NCBI RefSeq assembly: GCF_024347095.1
Contig: NZ_AP024903.1
Location: forward strand, 1,240,001 to 1,304,000
DNA length: 64,000 nt
Source: Vibrio rhizosphaerae
GTDB lineage: Bacteria; Pseudomonadota; Gammaproteobacteria; Enterobacterales; Vibrionaceae
Direction: 5' to 3'
The position numbers were made by a program, and so were the translations under genes. The notes under the pieces were generated by a model. That model had not been told where the DNA came from. It made no database searches and saw only the letters and a list, made by a program, of their open reading frames with translations. Numbering within the stretch: the stretch's first letter is position 1; the number at the start of each line of letters is the position of its first letter. Positions 1 through 62,492 of this stretch are shown here, piece by piece.

Positions 1-1341
1 GATGCACTGGCAAACAGCGGCACACTGGCCGCACTCAGCGATATGACGCTGAAAGTCGCACACCAGCTGAGTAACAGCGGAGCGGTGTCAGCCAGTCATG
101 ATGTCAGCCTGTTGACCGACAATCTGACCAATTCTGGGAAGGTGTTTGCCGGCAATAACCTGCTGATCGCTAAAGATAGTGGGCAGACTCGCACCACCAC
201 GTTCAACAATACCGACGGCAGCCTCACGGCGAAAGCGGGTCATCTTACGATTGCGACGCATGGTGATGTGGTTGTCAGTGCCGGGCAGCATCTGACTGCC
301 GGGCAGAATGTAACTCTGCAAGCCAGCAGCCTGACCAATGACGGAGAAGTATCTGCACAAGGCAAGACCGCGCTGACACTCGACAACGCCCTGACCAACC
401 ACGGTTTAGTCTCCGGTCAGCAGACGACACTTGCAGCGCAGTCGGTCACCAACACTGGTCAGCTTCAGTCGCTGACCGATCTCGGTTTAACCGCAGATGC
501 ACTGGATAACAGCGGCACACTGGCGGCACTCAGCGATATGACGCTGAACGTCGCACACCAACTGAGCAACACCGGAGCGGTTCTCGCTGGCAGCAACATT
601 CATCTGAATGCCACGAAGATGGAGAACCGAGGCCGTGTTTCGGCAGGTGATCAGGCCTTGATGACAGCGGATCAGCAAGCCGCCGGTCGGACGGATGCCA
701 GTCTCAGCGTATCCGCGATCACACTGACCAACAGCGGTGAATTGCTGGCTCAAGGCAGTAATCAATTGACGCTGAATACGCAGCTGACTAACCAAACGGA
801 CGGCTTGATTTCCGGTCAAATCACCACCGTCAATGCTCCTGTGGTGACCAATGCCGGTCAGCTTCAGTCCCTGACCGATCTCGGTTTAACCGCAGATGCA
901 CTGAATAACAGCGGCACACTGGCGGCACTCAGCGATATGACGCTGAATGTCGCGCACCAGCTGAGTAACACTGGAGCAGTGTCAGCTGACCATGATGTCA
1001 GTCTGTTGACCGACAATCTGACCAATACCGGCAAGGTGTTTGCCGGGAATAACCTGCTGATTGCCAAAGATAGCGAGCAGACTCGCACCACCACGTTCAA
1101 CAATACCGACGGCAGCCTCACGGCGAAAGCGGGTCATCTTACCATTGCAACCCATGGTGATGTGGTTGTCAGTACCGGGCAGCATCTGACTGCCGGACAG
1201 AATGTAACTCTGCAAGCCAGCAGCCTGACCAATGACGCGGAAGTATCTGCACAAGGCAAGACCGCGCTGATACTCGACAACACCCTGACCAACCACGGAT
1301 TAGTCTCCGGTCAGGGGACGACGGTGACAGCGCAGTCTGTG
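1..1341 (+). repeat. Near-identical internal repeats in cdiA
   Basis: Bases 1 to about 447 recur at 895 to about 1341 (offset 894) with only scattered differences. A shorter part (CTGACCGATCTCGG through the codons for DALxNSGTLAAL) occurs a third time near 475-545. These are haemagglutinin-repeat blocks kept similar by recombination or recent duplication. They are a place where short-read assemblies can collapse. Confidence 0.8.
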
Positions 1342-7300: not shown

Positions 7301-8754
7301 CGCTGGTCAACACAGCGAATGATCAGCCCGCGAAAGGCGCATATGCGGCAGGGAAGGTGCTCATTAATGATGCTGCACATTACCGTCTTGAAGATATTGT
7401 CAACACCATCGGCCATGAAACCCAACATTATCTGGATGATGCTCAAAGTACCGGTACACATAATGATGCCTATAAGGCGAACCGGGAAGAGTATGCCGAC
7501 ACGATGGGTGAAGCAACTGAAGATTATGTTGGTTTCAACTTCGCCAATACAGGGCGTGGCGATTTCGGTGGCTGGAATTTACAGCGAGGCACAAATCACA
7601 GTGATTTAGTTCGAGAAAATACACAAACGGCAGCACCATTATTACGAGACCCGACGATTGATTATCGTCAGCCGAACGCTGATGAGCGAACTGCGATTCT
7701 GGCACTTGCCGGGAATGATAAGCGCCGTCAGCAAGAGCTGAAAGAGGCCGCCTGTGCCTTGACGCATTGCTCTGCGGAATATGCAGTCGGCACAGAAAAA
7801 TATAATGAAATGAAAGCCCTTGAAGAGGCAGGGGCCAGCAATCCGGAAGCACAGGAAGTGTTGTTGAAATATAGCTTCCTGAAAGTTGCCGACAATATGA
7901 ATATGGCAACGGTGGTGGACAAATTATTTGGCTACACCGACAGCGATGTGCGGACGGATCGGTATCAAGCGGGTATGGATCAAGGGACTGAGAATAGTCT
8001 GAAAGCATTCAATGAGGCCTACGGAACCAATATCACTAAAGAGCAGTTTGAGTCAGGGGTTGGTTTCTTGAGTGGTCTTGCCGCTGGATTCGGTGCGGCG
8101 AAAGGAGGCAAATATGTTGGCGCAGCGACTGCGGAGGATGCGGCAGCATATAAGGCACTCAAGGGGATAGGGGAGAAAGCTAATTCGGTTAGTTCAGAGT
8201 CAGTTGAAGGGAAATTGTCTACGACTTATAGCTCTAGTAGTGGTGTCCCTACTTCTGTCATTCGACGAGACAGTGATTTTTATGCAACAACCAATTATAG
8301 AAATCAGAAAAAAGCGTATATAGATGAGAATGGCAATTTGATCCCAGCTAACCCAGATGGAAATGTTACTATTCAACAACATATCCGTGGTTCTGATCCA
8401 GCAAAAAGTAATAGTCAGTATATCTCGGCAACCGCAGTCGATGGTAACACTGCCAAAACTAAGAAAAATTATGGTTCTGAAGAAATAGAAATTTATACCG
8501 CTCGCTTACAGCAGGATATTGATTCAGGTAAAATTGAACATGTTAAAATTATTACCCCTCAGCAGGTACAAGCCGCACTTCAACAAAAGATTGAGAAGGC
8601 ACAAGAGCGCTATGATGCTAATCCTAGTCAAGCAAATTTTGATAGGCTTGATAACGCGAAGAGGGATTTGTCTAACGCTGTGAGGGATAATGAGTGTTTA
8701 ATTTCTGGCTGTGTTCCTCGTGATTACATTAAAAAAGGCGTAGTAGATGAGTAG
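1..8754 (+). CDS. cdiA: CdiA-type contact-dependent inhibition filament/toxin, 5' end outside window
   Basis: This is a two-partner-secretion exoprotein that carries a C-terminal toxin to neighbouring cells. The frame is open from base 1, so the start, signal peptide and TPS domain lie upstream, where cdiB would be expected. Order seen: filamentous-haemagglutinin repeats (LTNSG/AGxNLLIAKD types) to about 2160; a non-repetitive AT-rich block, about 2160-2650, at the usual place of the receptor-binding domain; a Ser/Thr/Gln-rich linker; a YLIATNP...FLGSDYF region (about 3160-3540) typical of CdiA before the second repeat array; repeats to about 6950 with a Lys/Gln-rich probable coiled coil at 5510-5750; a HETQH zincin-like motif at 7414-7428; then the variable toxin. 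No VENN motif was found. The last 160 codons hold an Arg at 8299, SQYISAT at 8413-8433 and a Glu at 8692. This spacing recalls R-S-E ADP-ribosyltransferases, but that is an inference. The gene overlaps its immunity gene by 8 bp. Confidence 0.9.
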   Translation, partial: DALANSGTLAALSDMTLKVAHQLSNSGAVSASHDVSLLTDNLTNSGKVFAGNNLLIAKDSGQTRTTTFNNTDGSLTAKAGHLTIATHGDVVVSAGQHLTAGQNVTLQASSLTNDGEVSAQGKTALTLDNALTNHGLVSGQQTTLAAQSVTNTGQLQSLTDLGLTADALDNSGTLAALSDMTLNVAHQLSNTGAVLAGSNIHLNATKMENRGRVSAGDQALMTADQQAAGRTDASLSVSAITLTNSGELLAQGSNQLTLNTQLTNQTDGLISGQITTVNAPVVTNAGQLQSLTDLGLTADALNNSGTLAALSDMTLNVAHQLSNTGAVSADHDVSLLTDNLTNTGKVFAGNNLLIAKDSEQTRTTTFNNTDGSLTAKAGHLTIATHGDVVVSTGQHLTAGQNVTLQASSLTNDAEVSAQGKTALILDNTLTNHGLVSGQGTTVTAQSVNNTGQMQALTDLGLNADVLANSGTLGAGNNAVFNIIHTLTSNGNISAGNNASLLADQVNNQNKIYARNSVLIAKDSTQTRSSSLTNSGQIDAKHGSISIATHGDFTVGAGQHLSAGKDLTLVADALTNDGELSSQGITTIGVDGTLTNHTAGIISGQNTVLRAGATTNQGQLQALNDLNLTTGSLTNSGSLVALHDMTLNATGHVDNHSLFYAGHDGNLFSDSLTNYSDIVVGNDLLIARDSNKTRSRDLTNSSGSIESLGGNIGIYADTVLNKRTVLNIVNQTQDLRGAIPGGGGQTIYIREGSKYAPIVEIHSSHNDRTNWTFYRIVGGTNWTFEAYRDQQILQNASNVSRILSASDIVIDTNSLQNNTSQISGKNIFITADTLTNKGYEFQSYVTYFDYQIRNLHIRDIYPYDLRQVRRVDSGIIGTLQSSITARDNLTLNVQNRTNNSVIGINAAGAQPTQSARTARATQGPSGTQAGVHVTQNIPDAGQGSASIQNASDSAQSATTHSIELTSQGSDSGAAVQAGQTSTGSGLAAQSAPNLTSVARTTPQGKSATTVTLSNSSTVTAPTVNLPNQNRIPFPDYRLPTSPHGLFVFSDGPQSDYLIATNPAVTNLNDFLGSDYFKDQLNYDPERKEKFLGDAYYDTRTISQEIFEQTGKRYLNEDIGSDLAQMKQLIDSAAQEKTALNLKNGVALTDEQIARLSHDIIWYEPIEVNGQTVMAPKLYLSSASQDNISNGALLAGRNVNVTTGDFANSGAVAAREDLSIASRNGISNTHGTLSANDDLALIATGDIVNRSGVISGGNVQLKTTSGNVVNETLVNKTDYGNGFVHTEVGPESLIQSRTTLGVSAGKDIVSKGATIRAGEGTVLLAGGDVTFGAVERETQQSFLDGGTRQVIKDIVHLGSTVSSGGDLTIQAGNNFHATASDLSAQGTLILAAGHDITLDTAVDTAYRYSDGGGHTRQLSTTTNQGSNLSGRDVLLQSGNDTTLVNGGIQASGNVALNAKGDVNILAANDSRYEYSKSTHKKSFGRSKTTIHESLKETVRGSSIAAGGDITIKAQKYSNAKLANGHSDIQVVGSNLNAGDAINLSADGDVILSAQQYREYQYNQTIKKGFGGLSGSNRGNLDDATLLEGANTIAASHININSGKNIGVIASTVSAGGDVNMQALDEVLVTADNILRQTQQWDEKSSFLSGGHLMEMSSDREGMQSSTAQGSQIASHGNVNIQGGSVALVGSDVGAGENTVLKADTGHLDIRSAQNSLRKTSQHKQVSVDFPTFELLSHPESALQITDGQVRFRIGKATYDQVENQTTATTQTGSTILANNDVSLSATGDLTVTGSRIAADQDGSGAGDLSLAAENILIQEAKETEQTQSQEVHGKAEASLVVQHQAVEVAKAVKGLQQATQALKQAKQDYQQYKKQLASLKGTLETLQADYAAKKPGVMFEDIEELQDLVSDLKGDEAWYAAGIALAAENVTSKTTLLAKQSDAAVNSITSGAFGFDAGLHLDIDADKQNSQSQRVTSVGSQLSGQNVTIEAGHQTGQSATVQGSVIHADDTLAVSGNQVNLLASDEQSSNTNGSESAHVGASVTLFGANSGVNLDASYSRNESVSQSQTHTNSVLSADHIRITSDGDTDVNGADVAANEQLDMSVGGDLNVASVQNRYSSTNHGGSVSGGVGLSGGDVGKGGAVSGFDHAGNLQGVNSGVNLSNGRSHSRETMLTRITSGGDANITVGGNTDIKGATIATVNEDGSDTGRLHLETGTLSYTDLSNTRDTSSRNAGVSSSVSIGPDKDGATQIDASRNSSRYQYTNQSGYHKSKTLATVGQGVLRIEDTRNSDDTERLNRDVTSTTKDLYSVDRQQGNFDVTVDHRWLSETGRGQIKEDFKRNAITGTAIADAVTKKSVGLLSDDDSGVSSLREHVGQKQGFFTAAKTFVTSDDNQAYVETLNNPTATPAQKEAAYQALSASVAEQFGLNPAQVMTALVNTANDQPAKGAYAAGKVLINDAAHYRLEDIVNTIGHETQHYLDDAQSTGTHNDAYKANREEYADTMGEATEDYVGFNFANTGRGDFGGWNLQRGTNHSDLVRENTQTAAPLLRDPTIDYRQPNADERTAILALAGNDKRRQQELKEAACALTHCSAEYAVGTEKYNEMKALEEAGASNPEAQEVLLKYSFLKVADNMNMATVVDKLFGYTDSDVRTDRYQAGMDQGTENSLKAFNEAYGTNITKEQFESGVGFLSGLAAGFGAAKGGKYVGAATAEDAAAYKALKGIGEKANSVSSESVEGKLSTTYSSSSGVPTSVIRRDSDFYATTNYRNQKKAYIDENGNLIPANPDGNVTIQQHIRGSDPAKSNSQYISATAVDGNTAKTKKNYGSEEIEIYTARLQQDIDSGKIEHVKIITPQQVQAALQQKIEKAQERYDANPSQANFDRLDNAKRDLSNAVRDNECLISGCVPRDYIKKGVVDE

Positions 8755-9428: not shown

Positions 9429-10295
9429 CTACCCCAAACAAACCCTTTCCACCAATCTTTTCAACCGTTGCACTTCACTTTCCAGAAATTCCAACTCCTC
9501 AACTGTAATCTCATAATGCTCCGAATATCGGGCCTCGATATAGGCGCGTTGTAGGCGGCGGAAGCAGCGGCGGTGGAATTTGTTGTCGAGCGGGAAAATG
9601 GTTGCAAATTCAGCATCGATTTGGGCGCATAGTTTCCCCAGTTTTTCAATATTGTGGGATTTAGGTAAGTAGTTGGTGCAGGTGAGTAGGGTACAGGCAA
9701 AGAGCCTTTCTGTGACTTGATGAAGCATGAATGCAGAAATTTTCTCATCCCCTTTTTCTAAACTGAACTGGAAATGATCAAAGAAACCATTGGCACTTTT
9801 GAACCACTGTTCATAATGCTTACGGGCAATTTCCTGCTTTTCTGCTTCGGTTAGATCTCCCGGCTCTGCCAGCGGTTTTGGGGTGGCGGCAAACAGTTCA
9901 ATCCCTTCTTCGCGGATATCTTTGAAGAAATAATGCCCCTGTTGTAGCCGCTCGTTGACTTCCTGCAAATCATGGACAATCAATCCCAGCGGTGCCGAAG
10001 TAACTTTACGGTCGATCTGCTCTTTGGCACGTTGCCAGACCACATCTTCTTCAACCAGCGCAGCTTTATTTACAATCACCAGAATATCGTAATCGCTGAT
10101 ATAGCCATTGACCGGATCGTTGACCCAAGTGCCTTTGGCATGGCTGCCGAACAGGATGATTTTCACAATCCGAAACTCGCTTTTACTCGCCGTTTTACCC
10201 TGAAGATAGTCTTCCAGCGTATCGCGCAGAATGATCGATATGGTGGCAAGCTCCTGCTGTTTGGATTCGGGCAAATGGTCGAGAGATGTTTTCAT
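9429..10295 (-). CDS. Nucleotidyltransferase (MNT)-HEPN fusion protein, copy 1
   Basis: This 288-residue protein has two domains. Residues about 40-115 carry the minimal nucleotidyltransferase signature: GSHAKGT at 50-56, then SDYDILV with Asp68 and Asp70. Residues about 155-280 are a HEPN-like helical domain ending in AYIEARYSEHYEIT. In two-gene MNT/HEPN toxin-antitoxin systems the MNT modifies a HEPN RNase; here both domains sit in one chain. It is convergent with cdiI and is duplicated, with about 140 bp of upstream DNA, at 13417-14295. The two proteins are nearly identical except for a block at residues about 166-197, where only about a third of positions match. A role as an extra immunity, regulatory or abortive-infection factor is inference. 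Confidence 0.8.
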   Translation of the reverse strand: MKTSLDHLPESKQQELATISIILRDTLEDYLQGKTASKSEFRIVKIILFGSHAKGTWVNDPVNGYISDYDILVIVNKAALVEEDVVWQRAKEQIDRKVTSAPLGLIVHDLQEVNERLQQGHYFFKDIREEGIELFAATPKPLAEPGDLTEAEKQEIARKHYEQWFKSANGFFDHFQFSLEKGDEKISAFMLHQVTERLFACTLLTCTNYLPKSHNIEKLGKLCAQIDAEFATIFPLDNKFHRRCFRRLQRAYIEARYSEHYEITVEELEFLESEVQRLKRLVERVCLG

Positions 10296-10490: not shown

Positions 10491-12911
10491 GTGAACGGTG
10501 CCGACGTTGCGGCGAATGAGCAACTGGATATATCCGTTGGCGGTGACCTGAATGTGGCTTCGGTACAGAACCGTTACAGCAGCACCAATCACGGTGGCTC
10601 TGTCAGTGGCGGGGTGGGCCTCTCCGGTGGGGATGTCGGCAAAGGTGGTGCTGTGAGCGGTTTTGACCATGCCGGGAACTTACAGGGCGTGAATAGCGGA
10701 GTGAACTTCTCAAACGGGCGTTCACATAGCCGGGAAACCATGCTGACCCGTATCACTTCCGGTAGTGATGCCAATATCACCGTGGGTGGCAATACCGATA
10801 TCAAAGGCGCGACGATTGCGACGGTTAACGAAGACGGCAGCGACGCCGGTCGGCTTCACCTCGAAACCGGCACGCTGAGTTATACCGACCTGAGTAACAC
10901 GCGTGATACCAGCAGCCGCAATGCAGGTGTCAGCTCGAGTGTCAGTATCGGCCCGGATAAGGATGGTGCGACTCAAATAGACGCGTCCCGTAATTCATCG
11001 AGATATCAGTACACCAATCAAAGTGGTTATCACAAGAGTAAAACGCTGGCGACGGTCGGACAGGGCGAGCTGCGTATCGAGGACACACACAACAGCGATG
11101 ATACCGAGCGTCTGAACCGGGATATCACCAGCACGACCAAAGACCTGTACTCAGTGGATCGTCAGCAGGGCAACTTTGATGTCACGGTTGACCACCGGTT
11201 GCTGAGTGAGGCCGGGTGGAAGGAGATTGCTGAGGATATACAAAGAAACAAACTGGCAGGAAAATCTCTGGTTGATATCGCACTGGAAGATTCGGTTAGC
11301 CTAAGTAATGCACTTGAGCATGTTGACGTTGTGCAGAAAGAGCTGGATGTTGAGATGCTGGTTGCCAGCCGTAATGGTAAATCTACAGTCAGTCTGAACA
11401 ATCTGAATATGGCAACGGCAGCCCAGAAACAGCAGGCCATTAATGATTACGCGGTGGCGTACGCACAGGTCTTCGGTATCAGTATAGAAAGTGCACTTGT
11501 GATTGCAGTCGATAAATCGATGGGTGGTGCGCATTACATGGGGCAAAACGGCAGCAATATCGTGATTAACGATGCAGCTATGAAAAATGCTCAGGCTTAT
11601 ATGCGAACTCTAGCCCATGAGGTGACACATGGGTTGACTGCACAGGGTGCCGTCTCTGACAAAGGAAGCTCGGCACTGAATGAGGAATATTCCGATCTGA
11701 TTGGTGGCTATGCTGAGGATAACTTTGCTTTTGCGCTGGAGCATGCTGGGTTGGGTGACCTGAATACGGGAGATGTGAACAACCATATTGGCAATGGTAC
11801 GGTTCTGACACAGAACAACTGGAATACCATTAAAGATGTTCCGGTGAGTCAGTTAGATTTTGAGATTGTCAGAGATGGCGGCTACAAAAATTTCTCTCAG
11901 TTAGTGCAGTCCGAGCCTCGCTTGAATGAGATGACATTAGGGCAGATGAATGCATTGCTTGATAATGTCACTTATCTGATGACTTACGGTGATGGTGTTG
12001 CCAACTCACCAGCAGCGGCTTCTGAGAAAATGGCTTATGTCCTTGAGAAGCTGAAACAGCAGGGAACGGATCCGAAAGTGATTCAATTCCTGAAAGATAA
12101 TACATCCAGAATGTCAGATATCATCGGTCCAGATCGTGAACAATATCATGCGTTAGGGAGAGCATTGATCAATGTCACGACAATGGGCGTGGCAGATATG
12201 ATTCGGGATCCGTCAACCAGTGAACGAGTGCGGGCAATTCAGGCAGTCTGGGATAATGCATTTACAGCGGCAGGAGTCCCTTCAGCTGGTATTGGGCTTG
12301 CAAGTTTAGGAGCGGATATCGCCCAGTTGTTGGGTAAGAAAGGCGTCGCACTATTAAGCAAAGATGAGTTTATTGCCACGGCAAAAGCTTGGGATGTGGA
12401 TATCACTCAAGCGTCGAAGCAAGAAATGGATGGGTTGTATCAGGAGTATGCGCAGGCGAGTGGTAAGCTGGATACAGTTATTTCTCCTGAAATGGAGTCT
12501 AAAATCCTTTATGGACAACGAGCTACAAACAGCAAGGGTAATCCAACAAATCGTTTAATTGGTGCTCATAGTGGGAATATTAGTGATGAAACCCCTAACT
12601 TTGCAGTGGAAACTATTTCGATAAATAGTGATGGAACAAGGAATGTGAAACTTATCACTCAATTTGATGATGGAAATGTTTCAAAAATTAAAAACAGTAC
12701 ACTATTTCCTGAAAGCTGGAGTGATGGGGAAATATTGTCGGCTGTGCAGCAAACGGGTCGTAGTCAACCTTTAGCTACAAGAGCTTCAGATGGCGCTACT
12801 TTATATCAGTCTGAAGTTAATGGGGTTAAAATTGAAGTTATTAAAGTTGGTAATAAAGTAACTGCTGGTTATCCATGTGGAAATAACTGTACAGATGTTT
12901 CCACGTTTTAA
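10491..12911 (+). CDS. Displaced (orphan) CdiA C-terminal module with EndoU-type RNase toxin
   Basis: This 806-codon frame starts abruptly inside cdiA sequence. Bases 10486-11219 are nearly identical to 6257-6990 of the upstream cdiA. There is no signal peptide and no Shine-Dalgarno before the GTG at 10491, so it is probably silent unless recombined into cdiA. After the shared DHRxLSExG junction comes a different pretoxin region with a HEVTH zincin-like motif (residues 376-380). The end, from about residue 660, matches the bacterial EndoU pattern: IGAHSGNI with candidate catalytic His693, then a KNSTLFPESWSD segment and a final NGVKIEV...AGYP. EndoU toxins of CDI systems cleave RNA, so tRNA or other RNA is the likely target. 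It is followed 9 bases later by its own immunity gene. Confidence 0.8.
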   Translation: MNGADVAANEQLDISVGGDLNVASVQNRYSSTNHGGSVSGGVGLSGGDVGKGGAVSGFDHAGNLQGVNSGVNFSNGRSHSRETMLTRITSGSDANITVGGNTDIKGATIATVNEDGSDAGRLHLETGTLSYTDLSNTRDTSSRNAGVSSSVSIGPDKDGATQIDASRNSSRYQYTNQSGYHKSKTLATVGQGELRIEDTHNSDDTERLNRDITSTTKDLYSVDRQQGNFDVTVDHRLLSEAGWKEIAEDIQRNKLAGKSLVDIALEDSVSLSNALEHVDVVQKELDVEMLVASRNGKSTVSLNNLNMATAAQKQQAINDYAVAYAQVFGISIESALVIAVDKSMGGAHYMGQNGSNIVINDAAMKNAQAYMRTLAHEVTHGLTAQGAVSDKGSSALNEEYSDLIGGYAEDNFAFALEHAGLGDLNTGDVNNHIGNGTVLTQNNWNTIKDVPVSQLDFEIVRDGGYKNFSQLVQSEPRLNEMTLGQMNALLDNVTYLMTYGDGVANSPAAASEKMAYVLEKLKQQGTDPKVIQFLKDNTSRMSDIIGPDREQYHALGRALINVTTMGVADMIRDPSTSERVRAIQAVWDNAFTAAGVPSAGIGLASLGADIAQLLGKKGVALLSKDEFIATAKAWDVDITQASKQEMDGLYQEYAQASGKLDTVISPEMESKILYGQRATNSKGNPTNRLIGAHSGNISDETPNFAVETISINSDGTRNVKLITQFDDGNVSKIKNSTLFPESWSDGEILSAVQQTGRSQPLATRASDGATLYQSEVNGVKIEVIKVGNKVTAGYPCGNNCTDVSTF

Positions 12912-13416: not shown

Positions 13417-14295
13417 TCAGCTCTGCGTCCGCTCCAAACAAACCCGTTCCACCAATCTTTTCAACCGCTGCACTTCACTTTCCAGAAATTCCAACTCCTC
13501 AACCGTAATTTCATAATGCTCCGAATATCGGGCCTCGATATATGCCCGTTGCAGACGGCGGAAGCAGCGGCGGTGGAACTTGTTGTCGAGCGGGAAAATC
13601 GTTGCAAATTCAGCATCGATTTGGGCGCATAGTTTCCCCAGTTTTTCGATATTGTGGGATTTAGGTAAATAATTGGTGCAGGTGAGTAGCGTGCAGGCGA
13701 ATAAATGTTCACTTGCTTGATGGAGTAAAAACGCAGCTTTTTTCAACCAATGGTTTTGCATCGTTACTTGGTGTAAAGCAATAAACTGAACTGCACTTTC
13801 AAACCACTGTTCATAATGCTTACGGGCAATTTCCTGCTTTTCTGCTTCGGTTAGATCCCCCGGCTCTGCCAGCGGTTTTGGGGTGGCGGCAAACAGTTCA
13901 ATCCCTTCTTCGCGGATATCTTTGAAGAAATAATGCCCCTGTTGTAGCCGCTCGTTGACTTCCTGCAAATCATGGACAATCAATCCCAGCGGTGCCGAAG
14001 TGACTTTACGGTCGATCTGCTCTTTGGCGCGTTGCCAGACGACATCTTCTTCAACCAGCGCGGCTTTATTCACAATCACCAGAATATCATAATCACTGAT
14101 ATAGCCATTGACCGGATCGTTGACCCATGTGCCTTTGGCATGGCTGCCGAACAGGATGATTTTCACAATCCGAAACTCGCTTTTACTCGCTGTTTTGCCT
14201 TGAAGATAGTCTTCCAGCGTATCGCGCAGAATGGTCGATATGGTGGCAAGCTCCTGCTGTTTGGATTCGGGCAAATGGTCGAGAGATGTTTTCAT
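13417..14295 (-). CDS. Nucleotidyltransferase (MNT)-HEPN fusion protein, copy 2
   Basis: This 292-residue paralogue of the protein at 9429-10295 has the same GSHAKGT and SDYDILV nucleotidyltransferase motifs and the same AYIEARYSEHYEIT segment in the HEPN domain. Outside one block the two copies are nearly identical. Residues about 166-197 are replaced by an unrelated-looking sequence of equal length (AVQFIALHQVTMQNHWL in this copy). The C terminus reads CLERTQS instead of CLG because the homology ends there. It sits convergent to the second immunity gene, exactly as copy 1 sits to the first. The upstream region shared by both copies (14296-14436 and 10296-10436) probably holds the promoter. 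Confidence 0.8.
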   Translation of the reverse strand: MKTSLDHLPESKQQELATISTILRDTLEDYLQGKTASKSEFRIVKIILFGSHAKGTWVNDPVNGYISDYDILVIVNKAALVEEDVVWQRAKEQIDRKVTSAPLGLIVHDLQEVNERLQQGHYFFKDIREEGIELFAATPKPLAEPGDLTEAEKQEIARKHYEQWFESAVQFIALHQVTMQNHWLKKAAFLLHQASEHLFACTLLTCTNYLPKSHNIEKLGKLCAQIDAEFATIFPLDNKFHRRCFRRLQRAYIEARYSEHYEITVEELEFLESEVQRLKRLVERVCLERTQS

Positions 14296-14449
14296 AAAGC
14301 GATATTTGGTCGGTGTGGATTGAATGGTTCATAGGATAAAAGAAGCGAGCGGCAAAAAACACTGTTTGTCATGGTTTTAGTGGTGTTGTCTAGGGAAATG
14401 CGACGGGGTTCGGTTTTATTGATTTGTCTTATTGTAGCCTCCGGCTCCC
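13437..14449. repeat. Duplicated MNT-HEPN block, copy 2 (partner 9435-10449)
   Basis: This is the second copy of the block at 9435-10449, with high identity throughout except about 13705-13800. Here the block runs on into complete copies of the structured repeat, which suggests that the first copy lost its repeat array. Confidence 0.9.
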
Positions 14450-15830
14450 AGATTTGACGCACAATTGCGTTTTTCGGTTTCAGAGGCATCAGTGCTCCGT
14501 GCGCCAGTTCATCTTTCAAAGATGAAAGACGAACCAGAAAATCTTTTTTGTTTGGCGGTGTCGCACGTTGTCCAGAAACGACTTTTACGGGCGTCCTGCC
14601 CGGAAAAGCCTAACCATTCATCCTTGAATGGTTTTCTTTGTTGAGTGGTTGATTCTAGTTGGGTGAAACATTGAATCAACGAAGCCAAATTGATCGATGA
14701 TCTCAGGGTAAAATTCATGGATGAATTTTAAGCTTTTTGTGAGCAGGAGCGAATAAAAGTGACCCTGATTATGTGCACTGAACTCAAACCCTAAGCATTT
14801 TGGGGTACTTTTTCTGCTGTGAAAAAGTACCTGGGGCGCAGGCGGAGGTGGTAATGAGATCGGAGAAGTCATTGCGCACCAAACACCCGCATTACAATTT
14901 TATCTTCTTGGCCTCCGGCTCCCAGATTTGACGCACAATTGCGTTTTTCGGTTTCAGAGGCATCAGTGCTCCGTGCGCCAGTTCATCTTTCAAAGATGAA
15001 AGACGAACCAGAAAATCTTTTTTGTTGGCTTGGGCGTGTGCTTTCCAGAACCGGCTTTTACGGGCGTCCTGCCCGGAAAAGCCTAACCATTCATCCTTGA
15101 ATGGTTTTCTTTGTTGAGTGGTTGATTCTAGTTGGGTGAAACATTGAATCAATGAAGCCAAATTGATCGATGATCTCAGGGTAAAATTCATGGATGAATT
15201 TTAAGCTTTTTGTGAGCAGGAGCGAATAAAAGTGACCCTGATTCAGTGCGCTGAACTTAAACTTTAGGCCTTTTGGGGTACTTTTTCGGCCTTGAAAAAG
15301 TATCTGGGGCGCATTCGGAGATGGCAATGAGCTCGGAGAAGTCATTGCGCACCAAACACCCGCATTACAATTTTATCTTCTTGGCCTCCGGCTCCCAGAT
15401 TTGACGCACAATTGCGTTTTTCGGTTTCAGAGGCATCAGTGCTCCGTGCGCCAGTTCATCTTTCAAAGATGAAAGACGAACCAGAAGATCTTTTTTGTTG
15501 GCGTGGCCGTGTGCTTTCCAGAACCGACTTTTACGGGCATCCTGCCCGGAAAAGCCTAACCATTCATCCTTGAATGGTTTTCTTTGTTGAGTGGTTGATT
15601 CTAGTTGGGTGAAACATTGAATCAATGAAGCCAAATTGATCGATGATCTCAGGGTAAAATTCATGGATGAATTTTAAGCTTTTTGTGAGCAGGAGCGAAT
15701 AAAAGTGACCCTGATTCAGTGCACTGAACTCAAACCCTAAGCATTTTGGGGTACTTTTTCGGCCTTGAAAAAGTATCTGGGGCGCAGGCGGAGGTGGTAA
15801 TGAGATCGGAGAAGTCATTGCGTCCCAAAC
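14437..15830 (+). repeat. Array A of the structured ~474-bp repeat: three tandem copies
   Basis: Units begin with GCCTCCGG at 14437, 14911 and 15384; the third ends near 15830. Each is a string of inverted repeats. In order: ACGCA-CAAT-TGCGT; TCTTTCA-AAGA-TGAAAGA; GGCTTTT-A-CGGGC-GTCCT-GCCCG-G-AAAAGCC; AACCATTCA-TCCT-TGAATGGTT; TAAAATTCA-TGGA-TGAATTTTA; GGTACTTTTTC/GAAAAAGTACC; AATGA...TCATT. Open frames exist on both strands, but they follow from the palindromes, have no ribosome site and are not conserved in start. I see no transposase and no target-site duplication. Candidate roles are a structured RNA, a non-autonomous mobile element or a REP-like element. Confidence 0.9.
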
Positions 15831-15898
15831 AACAGAGCCACCATTTGGCATGATGGCCTGATAGTCTTGATTGTTATGCTTTGGTTTAACAGTAGACA

Positions 15899-17308
15899 TT
15901 ATGGCAGATCCGATGTTTGCCATTTTGCCATGAGGGCTGAGGGTTTTTGTATATAAGGTGCCCACCGTGTATCACCGTCCAAAAAGGTTTTTTCAAACGC
16001 GAGCACGAGCGCTGCCACACCTCGACCTGCCTGAGTAGGATAAGCCCAGTCAAAATGACCACCAAGACCTAATACGGCTAGAATTTTGGGGGTGTTTGAA
16101 ATTGATCGGTAAACGCCATCTGATTGACCGAGGCCGCCGAGAACGGTGGTATCCAGAGCACCGTTAAGTAACAAGGCTGGAATTTTGATTAACCGGCCAC
16201 TGGCATAAGCGGCATCAAGAAGCTCCTTCGGTGAATACCAGGAATAGATGTCAGTGTTATACCAGGCGGTCATGTTGTGGCCAGCAAGACTTAGAACTGT
16301 TGCGAGTTCGTCTCTGTGTTTGCCCGCATTAATCCAAGAGGCTCCTCCGCCCATAGACCATCCCATGATTCCGACTTTGTCTGTATCCAGCTTACCTCTG
16401 AGAGGGCTGCCCAAACGGGTGTTTTCGCTTCTAAGGGCCTTAACGACTCGCCATTGCTGATTGTCTCGGGCTGTCACTTGGTCAAAAATGGTGGTGGTAT
16501 CCATCGTGACAAGAACTATACCGTGAGATGCAAACCAAGGCCCCCAGGCTGCAAAAGCGATCTGTTTGGACATAAACGGTGGGCAGAACACAATGCCTGA
16601 ATATGGTGGTTCTGCATTGGCGGGATAATATACCCTGGCTCTTGCCGGTAAGTTGACATAGGCACCGGGAAGCTCGTATGAGCTGACATCATAGGGGCCT
16701 TTTTCGTCGTATAGGCCGGGGGCTTCTTCATCACGACAGATGGCTCCATCCGGACAACTGCCACTAATGTGGTTCTCGGCGTGACGGCGCAGTGTAAATA
16801 TCTGATTTTCATTGCCAGTGCTGGTCGATTGCATGACGTTGGTATCGTTTTCTTCGGATAAATTATTAACATTCAGGCTCATGTCTGTGCCGCGGGTAAT
16901 AATCTGATAATTGCCGTTTCCAGTTTCAGCAAATCGGAACTGTTGACAGGCGCCACCCTCATAGCGCCATGTCTGGATATTGGCACCAACATTCGGACTG
17001 CATTTGGATACGTCGAACGCTTGGTCTGGCGCGATAACTGGTGTGATCCGGTGCCAGATTCCGTCGACGGGAGTAATGATGAATTTCTGGGATTCACCGC
17101 CCCAATAGTCATTCAGAGTAATGTTCGTACCGTCTATGGTGCCCCACTGCGAGGTGTCCAGCGCCTTGCCACTTTGGGTAACGATCAAAGAATACGTGCC
17201 GTTGATAATAGCATTTTCAGCAAAGGCCCCTTTGACAACGAAAGTCATTAGCATCAGTACTATCATATACATGATGGAGGTGACTTTGATTTTATGATTG
17301 TCTTTCAT
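15899..17308 (-). CDS. Secreted ricin-lectin/alpha-beta hydrolase, polyester-hydrolase (cutinase/PETase)-like
   Basis: This 469-residue exported enzyme has a signal peptide (cleavage near AFA30-E31), a ricin-B-type lectin domain at about 33-175, and a hydrolase domain at about 200-455. The nucleophile elbow GWSMGGG puts the catalytic Ser at 318; Asp386 and His418 complete the triad. The strand VLVTMDTTTIFDQ followed by AR.NQQ matches the fold signature of bacterial cutinases and PETases (family knowledge), and the W-S-M of PETase is kept. The oxyanion/aromatic position reads PPF rather than PGY, and the second aromatic-clamp Trp is replaced near His344. The natural substrate may be cutin, a polyhydroxyalkanoate or another ester; the lectin domain suggests carbohydrate binding. 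AAGGAG precedes the ATG. The gene lies directly beside repeat array A and has no operon partner. Confidence 0.8.
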   Translation of the reverse strand: MKDNHKIKVTSIMYMIVLMLMTFVVKGAFAENAIINGTYSLIVTQSGKALDTSQWGTIDGTNITLNDYWGGESQKFIITPVDGIWHRITPVIAPDQAFDVSKCSPNVGANIQTWRYEGGACQQFRFAETGNGNYQIITRGTDMSLNVNNLSEENDTNVMQSTSTGNENQIFTLRRHAENHISGSCPDGAICRDEEAPGLYDEKGPYDVSSYELPGAYVNLPARARVYYPANAEPPYSGIVFCPPFMSKQIAFAAWGPWFASHGIVLVTMDTTTIFDQVTARDNQQWRVVKALRSENTRLGSPLRGKLDTDKVGIMGWSMGGGASWINAGKHRDELATVLSLAGHNMTAWYNTDIYSWYSPKELLDAAYASGRLIKIPALLLNGALDTTVLGGLGQSDGVYRSISNTPKILAVLGLGGHFDWAYPTQAGRGVAALVLAFEKTFLDGDTRWAPYIQKPSALMAKWQTSDLP

Positions 17309-17562
17309 GGTGTCTCCTTATTGTTTCTTATTCCAAGTAAACAATTTTTTGGTAAACCAACTGAGTTTTGACTTTTTTAAAAGAGTCATTTTTCACGCTA
17401 TTGACACAGGTATGAAAATACCTTTGGTTAAAAAATGTACAACAGCTAAGGCAAACATAGCAAAGATGTTGCATATATGTAGCAAGAAATGCATAAAGTG
17501 TGTGTCACTGTACATATTTGAATGCGATGAAATTCGCGGGGCAGGTCAGTTTTTGAAGGTGA

Positions 17563-17596
17563 GTATCGAGGACACACAACAGCGATGATACCGAGC
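17563..17596 (+). pseudogene. Short cdiA fragment
   Basis: These 34 bases match cdiA codons for RIEDTxNSDDTER, with two bases deleted so the frame is broken. It is a scar of a former cdiA-derived sequence about 6.5 kb downstream of the nearest cdiA copy, next to the 25-bp repeat that also borders the displaced module at 10461. Confidence 0.65.
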
Positions 17597-17621
17597 ACTT
17601 TAAGGTGTGTGTCCTGATAAG
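17597..17621 (+). repeat. 25-bp repeat, copy 2
   Basis: Identical over 25 bases to 10461-10485. In both places the repeat touches cdiA-derived DNA, on the right at 10486 and on the left here. Confidence 0.75.
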
Positions 17622-17664
17622 CGCATTTTTTTACTAGATTACTTCCAAGGTAGTATGTGCCACA

Positions 17665-18210
17665 TCAAACATTTTTCACGGCCATTTGAATGATCCCTCT
17701 GGTTAACTTTTTAATTTCGAGGAGGCTTTTGCAGCTTTTACGAGCATCACGGCTAAAACAGACAATAACCTTTGCAGCATCTTTTGGCGCAATCGCTTTT
17801 TCATTAGATGCAGTTTCTAAAACTTTTTGCACAAGTTTTTCAAATGTCCTCCAGTATGTTTTCATCTCTTCGGGAGCATAAGTCTCTGCATTTAATAGAA
17901 TGTCGTAACTTTCCTCAGACTTAGAGAATTGGTTAAATGGTTCAATGACGAAAATGGAAAGTAGTGCCCATAATTTATCTTCAATGCTATTTTCAATATT
18001 TAATTTCGACTGAGCTTCTAATTGAAACTCTTTAACTACTTCTAATACACATGCGGAAAATACAGTCTGTTTATCTGAAAACACAGAATACAGCGTAGGC
18101 CGAGAAATTTGACTCGATTTGGCAATATCTCCCATAGTGACTTTCTTGAAACCAAATTTAATAAATAAACTTTCAGCTTCTTCAATGATTACTTCTTTAT
18201 TTGTTTTCAA
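17665..18210 (-). CDS. TetR/AcrR-family transcriptional regulator
   Basis: This 181-residue protein has an N-terminal helix-turn-helix: FIKFGFKKVTMGDIA, then ISRPTLYSVFSDKQ at about residues 16-48, the usual TetR DNA-binding pattern. The C-terminal helical part (VVKEFQLEAQSKL...) would bind a ligand and dimerise. It is divergent from the SDR gene at 18298 with an 87-bp gap containing inverted repeats, so it probably represses itself and that gene; this is inferred from layout. Gene and neighbour are clearly more AT-rich than the core genes of the window, which suggests transfer from another genome. The inducer is not predictable. Confidence 0.85.
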   Translation of the reverse strand: MKTNKEVIIEEAESLFIKFGFKKVTMGDIAKSSQISRPTLYSVFSDKQTVFSACVLEVVKEFQLEAQSKLNIENSIEDKLWALLSIFVIEPFNQFSKSEESYDILLNAETYAPEEMKTYWRTFEKLVQKVLETASNEKAIAPKDAAKVIVCFSRDARKSCKSLLEIKKLTRGIIQMAVKNV

Positions 18211-18297
18211 GGGACACCTTTTGCCTTAGTTTAAACTTGTTCTTTACATTTTAACAAAAAATGATAAATTGTAAAGGCAAAAACAAGAGAGGTTAAT
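18211..18297. promoter_or_regulatory. Divergent promoter/operator between tetR-type gene and SDR gene
   Basis: CTTTACA at 18242-18248 and TGTAAAG at 18270-18276 form an inverted repeat. An outer pair TGCCTT / AAGGCA lies at about 18222-18227 and 18274-18279. TTTACA (18243) with TAAATT (18265) at 16 bp spacing could be the promoter for the SDR gene, so a TetR dimer on the repeat would block it. AGAGAGG before the ATG is the SDR ribosome site. Confidence 0.45.
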
Positions 18298-19056
18298 ATG
18301 AAATTTAAAAATAAAGTAGTAGTTATTACTGGTGGTGGAACAGGTTTAGGAAAAGCAACAGCACTCAAATTTGCAAGAGAAGGTGCCCATGTTGCTATTT
18401 TGGGAAGACGTGAAGAAGAATTAAATATTGTCGTCAATGAAATTGAAAAAAATGGGTCGGAAGCGCTCGCCATTCAAGCAGATGTTTCAATTGAGTCAGA
18501 TGTAGAAAAATCAATCCAACAAGTCGTTGATAAATGGGGTCGTTTAGACGTGGCATTTAATAACGCTGGTATGCTTGGGGAGATGAAGCCGATCACTGAA
18601 TTAGAATCTTCAGACTTTGACAAAACTATGGCGGTAAATACAAAAGGAGTTTGGCTTTGTATTAGAGCGGAATTACAGGCAATGCTAAAAACGAAAACAT
18701 CAGGAGTGATTGTGAATACTTCTTCCTTTGTTGCTCGTGCTCCTAACGCTGGCGGTTCCGTCTATGCTGCAAGTAAAGCTGCTTTAGATGCAATGATCCA
18801 AGCAGTAGCACTTGAAGTGGGAGGCTCAAATATCCGCGTTAATAACATTGCCCCTGGAGTTATCAAAACACCAATGTCTTCTGATCTTCCTCAAGAGTTT
18901 CAAACGGCGTTAGCGAATCACTCAGCATTAAAGCGACTTGGAGAACCAGAAGATATTGCTGATGCTGTATTGTGGCTTTGTTCAGACGATGCTCGGTTTA
19001 TTACAGGCCAGTCGATTTTAGTTGATGGTGGGATCGCGATTCCTGGCTTTAGATAA
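18298..19056 (+). CDS. Short-chain dehydrogenase/reductase (classical SDR)
   Basis: This 252-residue NAD(P)-dependent oxidoreductase of classical SDR length has the cofactor motif TGGGTGLG at residues 11-18, NNAG at 88-91, catalytic Ser near 142-143 and YAASK with Tyr156 and Lys160. A C-terminal PGVIKTPM and the end motif ITGQSILVDGG are typical of the glucose-dehydrogenase/3-oxoacyl-reductase branch. The GR pair after the second strand (ILGRREEEL) leaves an NADP preference possible. The substrate is unknown. It is probably controlled by the divergent TetR protein. It is AT-rich compared with the surroundings, consistent with recent acquisition. Confidence 0.88.
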   Translation: MKFKNKVVVITGGGTGLGKATALKFAREGAHVAILGRREEELNIVVNEIEKNGSEALAIQADVSIESDVEKSIQQVVDKWGRLDVAFNNAGMLGEMKPITELESSDFDKTMAVNTKGVWLCIRAELQAMLKTKTSGVIVNTSSFVARAPNAGGSVYAASKAALDAMIQAVALEVGGSNIRVNNIAPGVIKTPMSSDLPQEFQTALANHSALKRLGEPEDIADAVLWLCSDDARFITGQSILVDGGIAIPGFR

Positions 19057-19122
19057 GAGTGGTAGCGGATCAATTCTAATTCTAAAAAGTAAACTTTTGT
19101 ATTTTGTTAAAGAGACTTTTAC

Positions 19123-19142
19123 TTGCCTTGCCTTGCCTTGCC
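19123..19142 (+). repeat. Four tandem TTGCC units
   Basis: TTGCC is repeated four times without a break, in the untranslated region 66 bases after the SDR stop. It is a simple-sequence tract that could vary in length. No gene frame crosses it. Confidence 0.85.
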
Positions 19143-19209
19143 TAATGCTTTATTACACTTAGATATTTAGCCAAAATTAGCTGACACAGAATTCTGAACG
19201 CCTTCTTCA

Positions 19210-19233
19210 AACCACCGCACTTTAGCGGTGGTT
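19210..19233. terminator. Hairpin after the secreted repeat-protein gene
   Basis: AACCACCGC-ACTTTA-GCGGTGGTT is a perfect 9-bp GC-rich stem. It lies 10 bases beyond the stop of the minus-strand gene 19243-19842 and also downstream of the plus-strand SDR gene, so it could end both. T-runs are short on both sides. Confidence 0.5.
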
Positions 19234-19242
19234 ATTAAAAAT

Positions 19243-19842
19243 CTAGTTATCATTTTTTTTAACCAGTTTCGAGCAATAGATTTGTTCTACATAATCATCG
19301 CCATAATCTTTATAGCTCATCCCGGATAGGTAGCTTCCTTTCGGACAATAGGTTTCCCCTGTATATTTTACATGTTTCCAGCCAACACCTTCCACGGTAT
19401 GTTGAGCGACTTCTAGGCAGCGAAAAGCCTCGATACTGTCATCACCTGAATCTTCGTAATATAATTCAGTGATAATACTATTGTTGGGGCAAAAATAGTC
19501 TTTTGAGCCTTTGCCATCCATTTGTTTTGTTGTAGTTTTATACGTTGCCCATCCCCAGCTTGGTGTTTCATAATGAAATTTTTCGATACTCCGGTCAGTG
19601 TCTCCAGCGCCGTATACGGCATTAATACCACCGTTTACCCCATACCAACCGGTTCCTTTGCCATTCATTTGTTTCCAAGATGAAGATGTTTTTTGGCCAG
19701 ATTTACTGTCGATAGAAGGAGAAGAAAAATAGTCCACTGTACTGGGGAAATCTTCATAACCTTCCTGACTCTCGCCTGCAAATGTGTTCATCGACATGCT
19801 AAGAATTGTACCTGCCATCATGAGTTGTAATTGTTTTTTCAT
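19243..19842 (-). CDS. Secreted protein with three related internal repeats, function unknown
   Basis: This 199-residue protein has a signal peptide (MKKQLQLMMAGTIL... cleavage after TFA22). The mature part contains three segments of one pattern: a K/Q-x-x-GKG start, then Gly/Cys-rich text, then Y.D.GDD.IE.F.C. They lie at about 57-92 (GAGDTDRSIEKF), 106-142 (EDSGDDSIEAFRC) and 158-191 (KDYGDDYVEQIYC). The last two carry paired Cys, so disulfides are likely in the periplasm or outside. No named family is recognised. A GGAAAG site precedes the ATG, and a 20-bp palindrome lies just upstream (19869-19888). Confidence 0.75.
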   Translation of the reverse strand: MKKQLQLMMAGTILSMSMNTFAGESQEGYEDFPSTVDYFSSPSIDSKSGQKTSSSWKQMNGKGTGWYGVNGGINAVYGAGDTDRSIEKFHYETPSWGWATYKTTTKQMDGKGSKDYFCPNNSIITELYYEDSGDDSIEAFRCLEVAQHTVEGVGWKHVKYTGETYCPKGSYLSGMSYKDYGDDYVEQIYCSKLVKKNDN

Positions 19843-19868
19843 TCTTTCCGTTTCCTTATTTGATTACG

Positions 19869-19888
19869 AAATGCAACTGGTTGCATTT
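19869..19888. promoter_or_regulatory. 20-bp palindrome upstream of the secreted repeat protein
   Basis: AAATGCAAC-TG-GTTGCATTT is a perfect 9+9 inverted repeat. On the minus strand it lies just after a possible -10 (TACAAT) and 27 bases before the start codon, a position fitting an operator. The binding protein is unknown. Confidence 0.5.
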
Positions 19889-20038
19889 ATCATTGTAGTC
19901 TATAAAAAACATGCAGGATTTTAGTATCAATTTTGTGCTGATTGGCCGCGATAGGACTTTCGCACTTGAACGTGTAGTGGTTGTGAAATTGAGAAATTGA
20001 TTGCTTCCCAAACCTCAACCTCAACATTTCACCGCCCA

Positions 20039-21492
20039 GCCTCCGGCTTCCAGATTTGACGCACAATTGCGTTGTTCAATTTCAGTAACATCGGTGCTCA
20101 GTGCGCCAGTTCATCTTTCAGAGATGAAAGACGAACCAGAAAATCTTTTTTGTTTGGCTTGGGTGCATGTTGTCCAGAACCGGCTTTTACGGGCGTCCTG
20201 CCCGGAAAAGCCTAACCATTCATCCGTGAATGGTTTTCCTCGTTTGGCGGTTGATTTGAATGGAGTGAAACATTTTAAAAGCGAAGCCAAATTGACCGAT
20301 GATCTCAGGGGGAAAATTCAGGACGAATTTTCAGGATTGCTTGAGCAGGATGCGAATCAATCCGACCCTGATTATATGCACTAAACTCAAACCCTAAGCA
20401 TTTTGGGGTACTTTTTCTGCTGTGAAAAAGTACCTGGGGCGCAGGCGGAGATGGCAATGAGATCGGAGAAGTCATTGCGTCCTAAACACCTGCATTACAA
20501 TTTTATCTTTCCAGCCTCAGGCTCCCAGATTTGACGCACAATTGCGTTGTTCTATTTCAGAGGCATCGGTGCTCTGTGCGCCAGTTACTCTTGCAGAGAT
20601 GCAAGCGTAACCAGAAAATCTTTTTTGTTTGGCTTGGGTGCATGTTGTCCAGAACCGGCTTTTACGGGCGTCCTGCCCGGAAAAGCCTAACCATTCATCC
20701 GTGAATGGTTTTCCTCGTTTGGCGGTTGATTTGAATGGAGTGAAACATTTTAAAAGCGAAGCCAAATTGACCGATGATCTCAGGGGGAAAATTCAGGACG
20801 AATTTTCAGGATTGCCTGAGCAGGATGCGAATCAATCCGACCCTGATTATGTGCACTAAACTCAAACCCTAAGCATTTTGGGGTACTTTTTCTGCTGTGA
20901 AAAAGTACCTGGGGCGCAGGCGGAGATGGCAATGAGATCGGAGAAGTCATTGCGCACCAAACCACAGAGCCCCCATTTCTCCCCCTAAACACTTGCATTA
21001 CAAGTTTTCTCTTCTTAGCCTCCGGCTTCCAGATTTGACGCACAATTGCGTTGTTCAATTTCAGTGACATCGGTGCTCAGTGCGCCAGTTCATCTTTCAG
21101 AGATGAAAGACGAACCAGAAAATCTTTTTTGTTTGGCTTGGGCGTGTGTTTTCCAGAACTGGCTTTTACGGGCGTCCTGCCCGGAAAAGCCTAACCATTC
21201 ATCCGTGAATGGTTTTCCTCGTTTGGCGGTTGATTTGAATGGAGTGAAACATTTTAAAAGCGAAGCCAAATTGACCGATGATCTCAGGGGGAAAATTCAG
21301 GACGAATTTTCAGGATTGCTTGAGCAGGATGCGAATCAATCCGACCCTGATTATGTGCACTAAACTCAAACCCTAAGCATTTTGGGGTACTTTTTCTGCT
21401 GTGAAAAAGTACCTGGGGCGCAGGCGGAGATGGTAATGTGATCAGGGAAGTCATTGCGCACCAAACACCCGCATTATAATTTTATCTTCTTA
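20039..21492 (+). repeat. Array B of the structured ~474-bp repeat: three tandem copies
   Basis: Units start at 20039, 20514 and 21018, in the same orientation as array A 4 kb away. The stems are the same as in array A, with sequence changes that keep pairing. In unit 1 the second stem is GTTCATCTTTCA with GAGA loop and TGAAAGACGAAC; in unit 2 both arms change to GTTACTCTTGCA and TGCAAGCGTAAC. The AATTC stem reads AAAATTC-AGGAC-GAATTTT here instead of TAAAATTCA-TGGA-TGAATTTTA. Unit 2 ends in a 30-bp extra tail (ACAGAGCCCCC...) like the tail of the last array A unit, so the array was probably built by joining shorter arrays. Confidence 0.9.
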
Positions 21493-21565
21493 GCCTCCGG
21501 CTCCCAAATATGCCGCACAATCAGCGATTCCCTAACAAAAAACTTGAATAGGATGCGAATCCATT
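21493..21565 (+). repeat. Internally deleted copy of the structured repeat
   Basis: It begins GCCTCCGGCTCCCA like a full unit, then skips most of the element and resumes with CTTGAATAGGATGCGAATCC, which resembles the late segment CTTGAGCAGGATGCGAATC of array B. It ends about 10 bases before the peptidase stop codon. Confidence 0.65.
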
Positions 21566-24631: not shown

Positions 24632-24651
24632 GTGGTGTGTGTCCTCGTAAG
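24632..24651 (+). repeat. 25-bp repeat family, diverged copy 4
   Basis: GGTGGTGTGTGTCCTCGTAAG shares the core GTGTGTGTCCT and final TAAG with the identical copies at 10461 and 17597. It lies in the gap between the chemoreceptor promoter region and the pectate lyase end. Confidence 0.5.
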
Positions 24652-62383: not shown

Positions 62384-62426
62384 CAAGCGTGAGCCGAATC
62401 GACAGCATCACGGTTTACACCTTTCC

Positions 62427-62492
62427 AGCCTCCGCTTTTCCGGGCGTCCTGCCCGGAAAAGCTTTATCATGCTTCGGTGAATGATTTTCTGT
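62427..62492 (+). repeat. Internally deleted copy of the structured repeat, 41 kb from the arrays
   Basis: The first bases of the element (CAGCCTCCG) are joined to its third stem. The stem here is perfect over 12 bp (GCTTTTCCGGGC-GTCCT-GCCCGGAAAAGC), whereas array copies have one A-G mismatch in it. The next stem also changes on both arms (TCAT/ATGA instead of CCAT/ATGG). It stands between two core genes. Confidence 0.75.

Follow-up and report, generated by a model that had tools for sequence, protein, structure and literature searches.

A dispersed 474-bp palindromic repeat in Vibrio rhizosphaerae: candidate divergent TwoAYGGAY-like RNA pairs between gene cassettes

The nearest described relative of the element treated here is TwoAYGGAY (Rfam RF01731), an RNA family whose loops resemble the CsrA motif and which has been proposed to sequester this regulator (PMC4333381, in the accessible part of the paper); the accessible portions of the literature yielded no tested function for it. 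Here, we analyzed a window of 64,000 nucleotides from Vibrio rhizosphaerae (contig NZ_AP024903.1, positions 1,240,001 to 1,304,000, renumbered from 1), which carries two arrays of a structured repeat of about 474 bp. Our preferred reading, which we put forward tentatively, is that each unit is a divergent pair of TwoAYGGAY-like RNAs that binds CsrA and is also a recombination border for gene cassettes. The original prediction, made from the letters of the window, had offered a structured non-coding RNA, a transposon substrate or a nucleoid/recombination element; the RNA and recombination readings proved partly right, and the transposon substrate found no clear support. Our literature searches, in which subscription papers are poorly covered, found no published description of these repeats.

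The repeat unit and its match to TwoAYGGAY

Six units, all on the plus strand, form two arrays. Array 1 comprises units at 14437..14910, 14911..15383 and 15384..15831, and array 2 units at 20039..20509, 20514..20962 and 21018..21491, with the profile match of the last extending to 21521. BLAST with the first unit of array 1 as the query agrees with the positions and strand originally predicted, and a repeat finder gives the same spacing. A profile built from 44 copies recognises all six units in reverse complement as well, each over nearly its full length (57-79 bits), and the unit is therefore an imperfect palindrome of two half-units, a point that the original prediction did not contain. Six hairpins, H1-H6, were named by hand from the output of RNAalifold. 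Its input alignment, which also served for covariation, comprised 71 full units, 44 of them from this genome and 27 from five relatives. The left half of unit 1 (14507..14633, RNA sense minus) contains H1 (14507-14534), H2 (14581-14609) and H3 (14612-14633), with GGA loops in H2 and H3; the right half (14710..14832, RNA sense plus) contains H4 (14710-14729), H5 (14732-14760) and H6 (14803-14832), with GGA loops in H4 and inside H5.

TwoAYGGAY matches every one of the six window units in its left half, on the minus strand, and three of these matches are at or over the cut-off, a gathering score of 43 bits. The second unit of array 1 exceeds it (15037-15112) and the first two units of array 2 are at it (20176-20240 and 20651-20715), while the first and third units of array 1 (36.9 bits, and 40.3 bits at 15510-15585) and the third of array 2 (39.2 bits) fall below. 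Across the whole genome there are 19 matches at E<1, of which 7 reach the cut-off and 12 fall short; every one falls within unit positions 104-255 and has the opposite orientation to the unit. The right half may be a diverged TwoAYGGAY, its sole ties to the family being the palindrome and its loops. A stray copy predicted at 62427 turned out to be a fragment of two hairpins, H2-H3 (62422..62490, plus strand, 46.8 bits). Its perfect 12-bp third stem and the change of stem 4 from C-G to T-A on both arms are both present as described; one stem 4 pair is broken and the loop lacks GGA.

The two-contig genome (4.56 Mb) that includes the window gave 76 BLAST matches to unit 1, likewise absent from the original prediction, and 44 of these are near full length. 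Units occur in groups of 1-5 that alternate with genes and keep a single orientation inside each cluster. On the large contig they are on the plus strand at 0.93-1.51 Mb and on the minus strand at 1.92-3.41 Mb, except for a small plus-strand fragment at 3.32 Mb, an orientation that could track replication direction; on the small contig orientation is mixed. Within the genus, 16 of 227 genomes match the unit, and long copies beyond our genome are found in G111, G112, G172, G187 and G230, where copy numbers are lower bounds since two candidates per genome were scored. A 61-genome sample contained no match outside the genome of the window, and distant DNA searches of phage and plasmid collections returned none. 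TwoAYGGAY itself matches 24 of the 369 genomes in our sample of the class, in several copies in some. Elements of this kind also occur in loci from other genera of the class, and four minus/plus pairs within about 300 bp were found in G407, G517 and G611. No CsrB/RsmZ-type Rfam family reached its gathering score in the window or in 16 repeat loci (L031-L046).

A protein-coding repeat was considered and rejected. The 71 copies share no open frame, each frame is closed by a median of 4-7 stops and the longest open stretch has a median of 76 amino acids, which agrees with the earlier claim that selection does not act on a protein.

Conservation of the fold and the strand of each half

The six hairpins are conserved as a fold. 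Over the 71 units, 97.4% of 3972 alignment cells are paired, RNAalifold finds compensated changes in 16 of 70 pairs, and 272 cells are changed on both sides, vs 1-46 when the partners are slid; none of 500 shuffles reached 272 or equalled the covariation score. These counts support the selection for the fold that had been predicted, and the stem 2 difference cited for it, CTTTCA/TGAAAG vs CTTGCA/TGCAAG, is a true paired change (U-A in 43 copies, G-C in 28). Because the repeat family recombines, linkage serves as a second control on covariation. Twelve stem pairs vary in both partners, which lie 7-41 columns apart. Their r2 values are 0.91-1.0 (mean 0.99) in the 44 copies from this genome, against a mean of 0.18 for distance-matched control columns; in all 71 copies the values are 0.79-1.0 (mean 0.95) against 0.10. 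As the columns of one helix depend on each other, the low p values of this test can be taken as indicative only. One unit is also more stable than 100 of 100 shuffles, with z of -3.7 as plus-strand RNA, -4.9 as minus-strand RNA and -5.5 as DNA.

The mismatches that the stems tolerate differ between the two halves. When read on the plus strand, left-half stems of the 71 copies contain 61 A.C cells and no G.U, and right-half stems contain 102 G.U cells and 2 A.C. Counted by base pairs, G.U/A.C is 0/8 on the left vs 8/2 on the right (Fisher p 0.001, or 0.002 when one invariably G.U end pair is left out). An A.C pair on the plus strand corresponds to G.U on the minus; the pattern is thus that of minus-strand RNA for the left half and of plus-strand RNA for the right.

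The loops face the same way. GGA is present in the sense-strand loops of H2 and H3 in 70/71 copies each, and of H4 and the inner hairpin of H5 in 71/71 each. On the minus sense, H3 reads ANGGAN in 65/71 and H2 reads AGGA in 70/71; on the plus sense, H4 keeps GGA and the inner H5 loop AGGA in 71/71. Each half has a pair of hairpins whose loops resemble AYGGAY on a single strand, in contrast to the H6 loop, of which there are nine forms. Since G.U tolerance and GGA loops point in the same direction, each half seems to be selected as RNA, the two being divergent. There is one csrA gene in the genome, and we predict that a unit would offer CsrA four sites, two per strand.

Paired change alone is no proof of selection on a fold, as template switching in quasi-palindromes also yields paired changes. 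We favour an RNA because of the strand-specific G.U pattern together with the GGA loops. Computation supports the predicted structured non-coding RNA, assigns each half a strand and places the left half in a known family.

Mosaic copies and the genes between them

Repeat copies are mosaics. Two copies from one array are 88% identical (52 pairs), as against 81% for copies from different arrays of our genome (914 pairs). Over 104 two-allele columns in the 44 copies from this genome, r2 declines with distance, being 0.35 for columns up to 20 bp apart and 0.04 for those more than 60 bp apart, and at the latter distance 91-93% of column pairs fail the four-gamete test.

The genes between the units differ among species at the same sites. 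At the site of the window, G187 has both flanks in common with it and carries a flavohaemoglobin gene and two small open reading frames (ORFs) between units, one of which was scanned and has no Pfam match. In G172 the flank on the peptidase side is the same, and the lectin and 199-aa genes are present but TetR and SDR are not, and G230 shares the side with a gene encoding a nucleotidyltransferase-HEPN (NT-HEPN) fusion, followed by a DNA methylase gene, a GmrSD-type gene and a single unit. A second site follows a gene present in all five relatives. Units stand directly behind it both in our genome, with a type I-F CRISPR-Cas system, and in G172, with a type I-E system and an IS200-like gene; in G111, G112, G187 and G230 the same backbone gene series precedes a unit. 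Behind that unit, G111 has two unscanned genes, three more units and a Cas3e gene, G112 a VgrG gene, G187 an S-type pyocin gene and G230 an NT-HEPN gene, and the stretches read in G111, G187 and G230 end inside or soon after these genes. Together, the mosaic copies and the differing genes lend indirect support to the recombination element of the original prediction.

At a third site our genome has no unit and a single copy of the motif GTGTGTGTCCT(T/C)GTAAG (24634..24651, plus strand). In G111 two units lie between two such motifs, and in G187 a 77-bp remnant does; split matches are also present in G112, G172 and G230, where the inserts were not read through. The one empty/filled site thus shows direct repeats of about 17 bp. 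As the motif recurs elsewhere, in the relatives and as four extended matches in our genome, these are no simple target duplication, and the comparison gives a transposon substrate no clear support. We also rejected GTGTGTGTCCT as the end of the element: it bounds this site and several array ends in relatives, with just the four extended matches in our genome. Separately, a 45-bp sequence resembling a miniature inverted-repeat transposable element (MITE), AGGACACAC...GTGTGTCCT (window 17569-17615; L125-L131), and the motif GTGTGTCCT recur in the relatives' loci. A scan of 562 kb counted 90 occurrences, including 21 in L145-L156, loci that largely overlap others.

Protein domains were assigned with Pfam for selected proteins in the window and in other clusters. 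Between the arrays (15899..19842) are genes for a PETase-like hydrolase (PF12740) fused to ricin-type lectin repeats (15899-17308, minus), a TetR protein (minus), an SDR protein (plus) and a 199-aa protein without a domain match (minus). The TetR and SDR genes (17665-19056) are the ones missing from the otherwise similar cassette of G172 (L144). Upstream of array 1, the window encodes a 2903-aa protein with haemagglutinin repeats, probably of polymorphic-toxin type (43..8754, plus), and a protein with a C-terminal EndoU nuclease domain (10491..12911, plus), followed by an ORF without a Pfam match that is a candidate immunity gene by position (12921-13328). Consistent with the original prediction that the arrays hold no transposase, none of six scanned proteins from 13.4-22.7 kb, one of them without any match, has a transposase domain. 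Other clusters of the genome include Gabija GajA/GajB, type I-F CRISPR-Cas, three S-type pyocin genes identified by Pfam and a further paralogue sharing 88% identity with one of the three, HipA-like and Phd/YefM-like genes, a HamB-like helicase and ordinary enzymes such as GST, GNAT and GrpB. In eight clusters, 37 of 46 genes are co-directional with the repeats. Two matches to C4 antisense RNA (RF01695; L038 4268-4352 and 15822-15908, minus) flank the I-F CRISPR-Cas system inside its repeat-bounded block.

NT-HEPN genes are frequent neighbours of the units. The gene at 13417..14295 (minus) lies 127 bp from the array 1 profile match and is divergent from the array; a second paralogue, 92% identical (9429..10295, minus), has no unit within 400 bp. 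The genome has 18 full copies, and many occur in relatives. A unit or a piece of one is found within 400 bp of the gene for 11/18 of our copies and 18/30 of the relatives' loci that were fetched. Upstream units (13) are divergent from the gene in 12 cases and 138-139 bp away in 7; downstream units (16) are co-directional in 14 and 1-32 bp away in 14. Across both positions, L079, L100 and L117 deviate in orientation; L122 has an additional weak match. Compared paralogues (13417-14295 and L031-L036) are 78-92% identical, but a stretch of the HEPN part around residues 165-190 differs strongly among them, as though specificity had diversified there. A 70-kb locus of G112 alternates toxin-tip-like ORFs, small ORFs, NT-HEPN genes and repeat units, with truncated 3′ gene pieces. 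In G112 (L125-L129) the displaced 3′ NT-HEPN pieces repeatedly start at residue 117-118 or ~213-231, and several are flush with the starts of toxin-tip-like ORFs; we read these starts as shared recombination joints. A general link between TwoAYGGAY and NT-HEPN genes was considered and rejected, as the two occur in 24 and 6 of the 369 genomes of the class, with two in common.

Interpretation and comparison with known systems

We hypothesize that the half-units of each 474-bp divergent pair of TwoAYGGAY-like modules are transcribed outward from the unit centre, or by read-through. Each half-unit RNA would carry a pair of hairpins with GGA loops together with a long capping stem and would bind CsrA, which would then either be titrated or bring the adjoining genes under Csr control. 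Being long, numerous and co-directional within a cluster, the units could also act as shared homology. Homologous recombination between copies would duplicate units and make arrays alike, and it would swap cassettes between units, among them toxin, type VI secretion system, CRISPR-Cas and Gabija genes, the NT-HEPN family and other genes, perhaps to the benefit of this cargo. A bolder version, which we regard as unlikely, is a recombinase-free cassette system with a divergent CsrA-responsive RNA pair as its border, in which a recombined weapon or defence gene would be plugged at once into the Csr circuit and each added border would titrate CsrA. By analogy, Csr control of the cassettes would fit the coordination of antibacterial and antiphage defence by Gac/Rsm in pseudomonads (PMC11888443, in its accessible part). 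If the borders bind CsrA, they would give acquired immune cassettes a route into Csr control in another Vibrio group, and cassettes could be found by their RNA borders.

Several observations weigh against the divergent CsrA-binding pair. Most left-half matches to TwoAYGGAY are below the cut-off and span model positions 43-123 only, about half of the model, and the right half has no match in the window even at E 10. In the strand comparison, one base pair supplies 42 of the 61 left-half cells and two supply 90 of the 102 right-half cells. Neither covarying pairs (14 observed against 12.3 in shuffles, with 30 of 500 shuffles attaining the observed number) nor pair types (22 against 22.3) are clearly more numerous than in shuffles. 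There are only 4-13 stem haplotypes per helix, so independent paired-change events are far fewer than cells, and stem pair 285-296 is not unusual for its distance, with 12% of controls reaching its value in the copies from this genome. We looked for a conserved promoter at the unit centre and found promoter-like matches at the level of chance (16 vs 12.4), with a central match only in array 1 of the window. Co-direction of genes with repeats falls to 9/13 when transcription blocks are counted, and in the window it holds for 1/4 genes. It is also conceivable that the repeats are passengers on islands whose movement has other causes. Finally, as loss of gacA in Vibrio parahaemolyticus gave no defence defect (PMC11888443, in its accessible part), Csr control of defence is no rule in Vibrio.

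Alternatively, the unit could be a cassette border at the level of DNA only, with long homology blocks in an integron-like layout exchanged by a recA-type mechanism and hairpins that are cruciforms or irrelevant. The decay of linkage and the four-gamete failures, the differing genes at the same sites, the co-directional repeats of each cluster in our genome and the site with no unit in our genome and two in G111 all fit this possible, if doubtful, account. However, if the hairpins were cruciforms, neither strand should be favoured in the mismatches they accept, which is at odds with the observed bias (p 0.001-0.002, counted by base pairs), and GGA loops persist alongside an H6 loop that is free to vary. 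The same strand-specific G.U and the kept GGA loops are not predicted by template switching, which would have corrected quasi-palindromes without selection if the unit were a selfish dispersed repeat of MITE- or REP-like kind. The 76 dispersed matches, the several copies of TwoAYGGAY in some of the 24 matching genomes of the class and the few stem haplotypes suit such a repeat, but we find neither clear terminal repeats nor a target duplication, and the scanned window proteins lack a transposase domain, making a selfish origin rather improbable.

We think it quite improbable that the unit is a bidirectional transcription terminator or insulator between cassettes. Terminator-like sites are in excess in the region (23, with 7.7 expected), and 21 of the 23 fall inside units, on both strands, but the count is inflated by the same sites being repeated in six units, several tandem 474-bp copies exceed what a terminator needs, and the GGA loops are left unexplained. 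The regular orientation and spacing of units within 400 bp of NT-HEPN genes, and the stretch near residues 165-190 that differs so strongly between paralogues, would be expected of an RNA partner of the adjoining protein, as an RNA antitoxin or a substrate. We give this idea very little credence, as 7/18 of our copies have no unit nearby and 22/24 matched genomes of the class have TwoAYGGAY without an NT-HEPN gene (E<=1e-40). HEPN domains fused to nucleotidyltransferases also typically lack the RNase residues (PMC3710099, in its accessible part).

The proposed divergent CsrA-binding pair can be set beside several known systems. The definition of REP/RAYT, a palindrome of 20-40 bp (repetitive extragenic palindrome) with a RAYT transposase, does not cover a unit of 474 bp; the only Y1 transposase encountered was the IS200-like gene between units in G172, and no genome-wide search for RAYT genes was made. 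Tn7-like islands carry cargo of mixed offensive and defensive genes, as Gamma-Mobile-Trio islands reportedly do, and the clusters described here resemble both in this mixture. The clusters differ in having repeat arrays as borders, and no mobility genes of either kind were recognised among the scanned proteins, in which no search was aimed at them. Integrons hold gene cassettes with attC sites, and our clusters share with them the order of one or more genes followed by a structured repeat, the mostly co-directional layout and the diversity of genes. The units differ in being about 474 bp long and tandemly duplicated, and Pfam revealed no integrase domain in the proteins selected for scanning, with no attC model run. 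As in the CsrA-sequestering RNAs CsrB, CsrC, RsmY and RsmZ, GGA hairpin loops are repeated, whereas the unit has dozens of dispersed copies and uses both strands. The closest likeness is to TwoAYGGAY, whose two tandem GGA-loop hairpins recur on the very strand picked out by the left-half G.U pattern. With a left half-unit that is TwoAYGGAY-like, the repeat family is not wholly new. As far as our searches go, the divergent double unit, the strand-resolved evidence that selection acts on RNA and the place at the borders of exchanged offence and defence cassettes are new. Whereas Rfam models a single motif, the unit adds a divergent half that the model does not recognise, a capping stem and tandem arrays.

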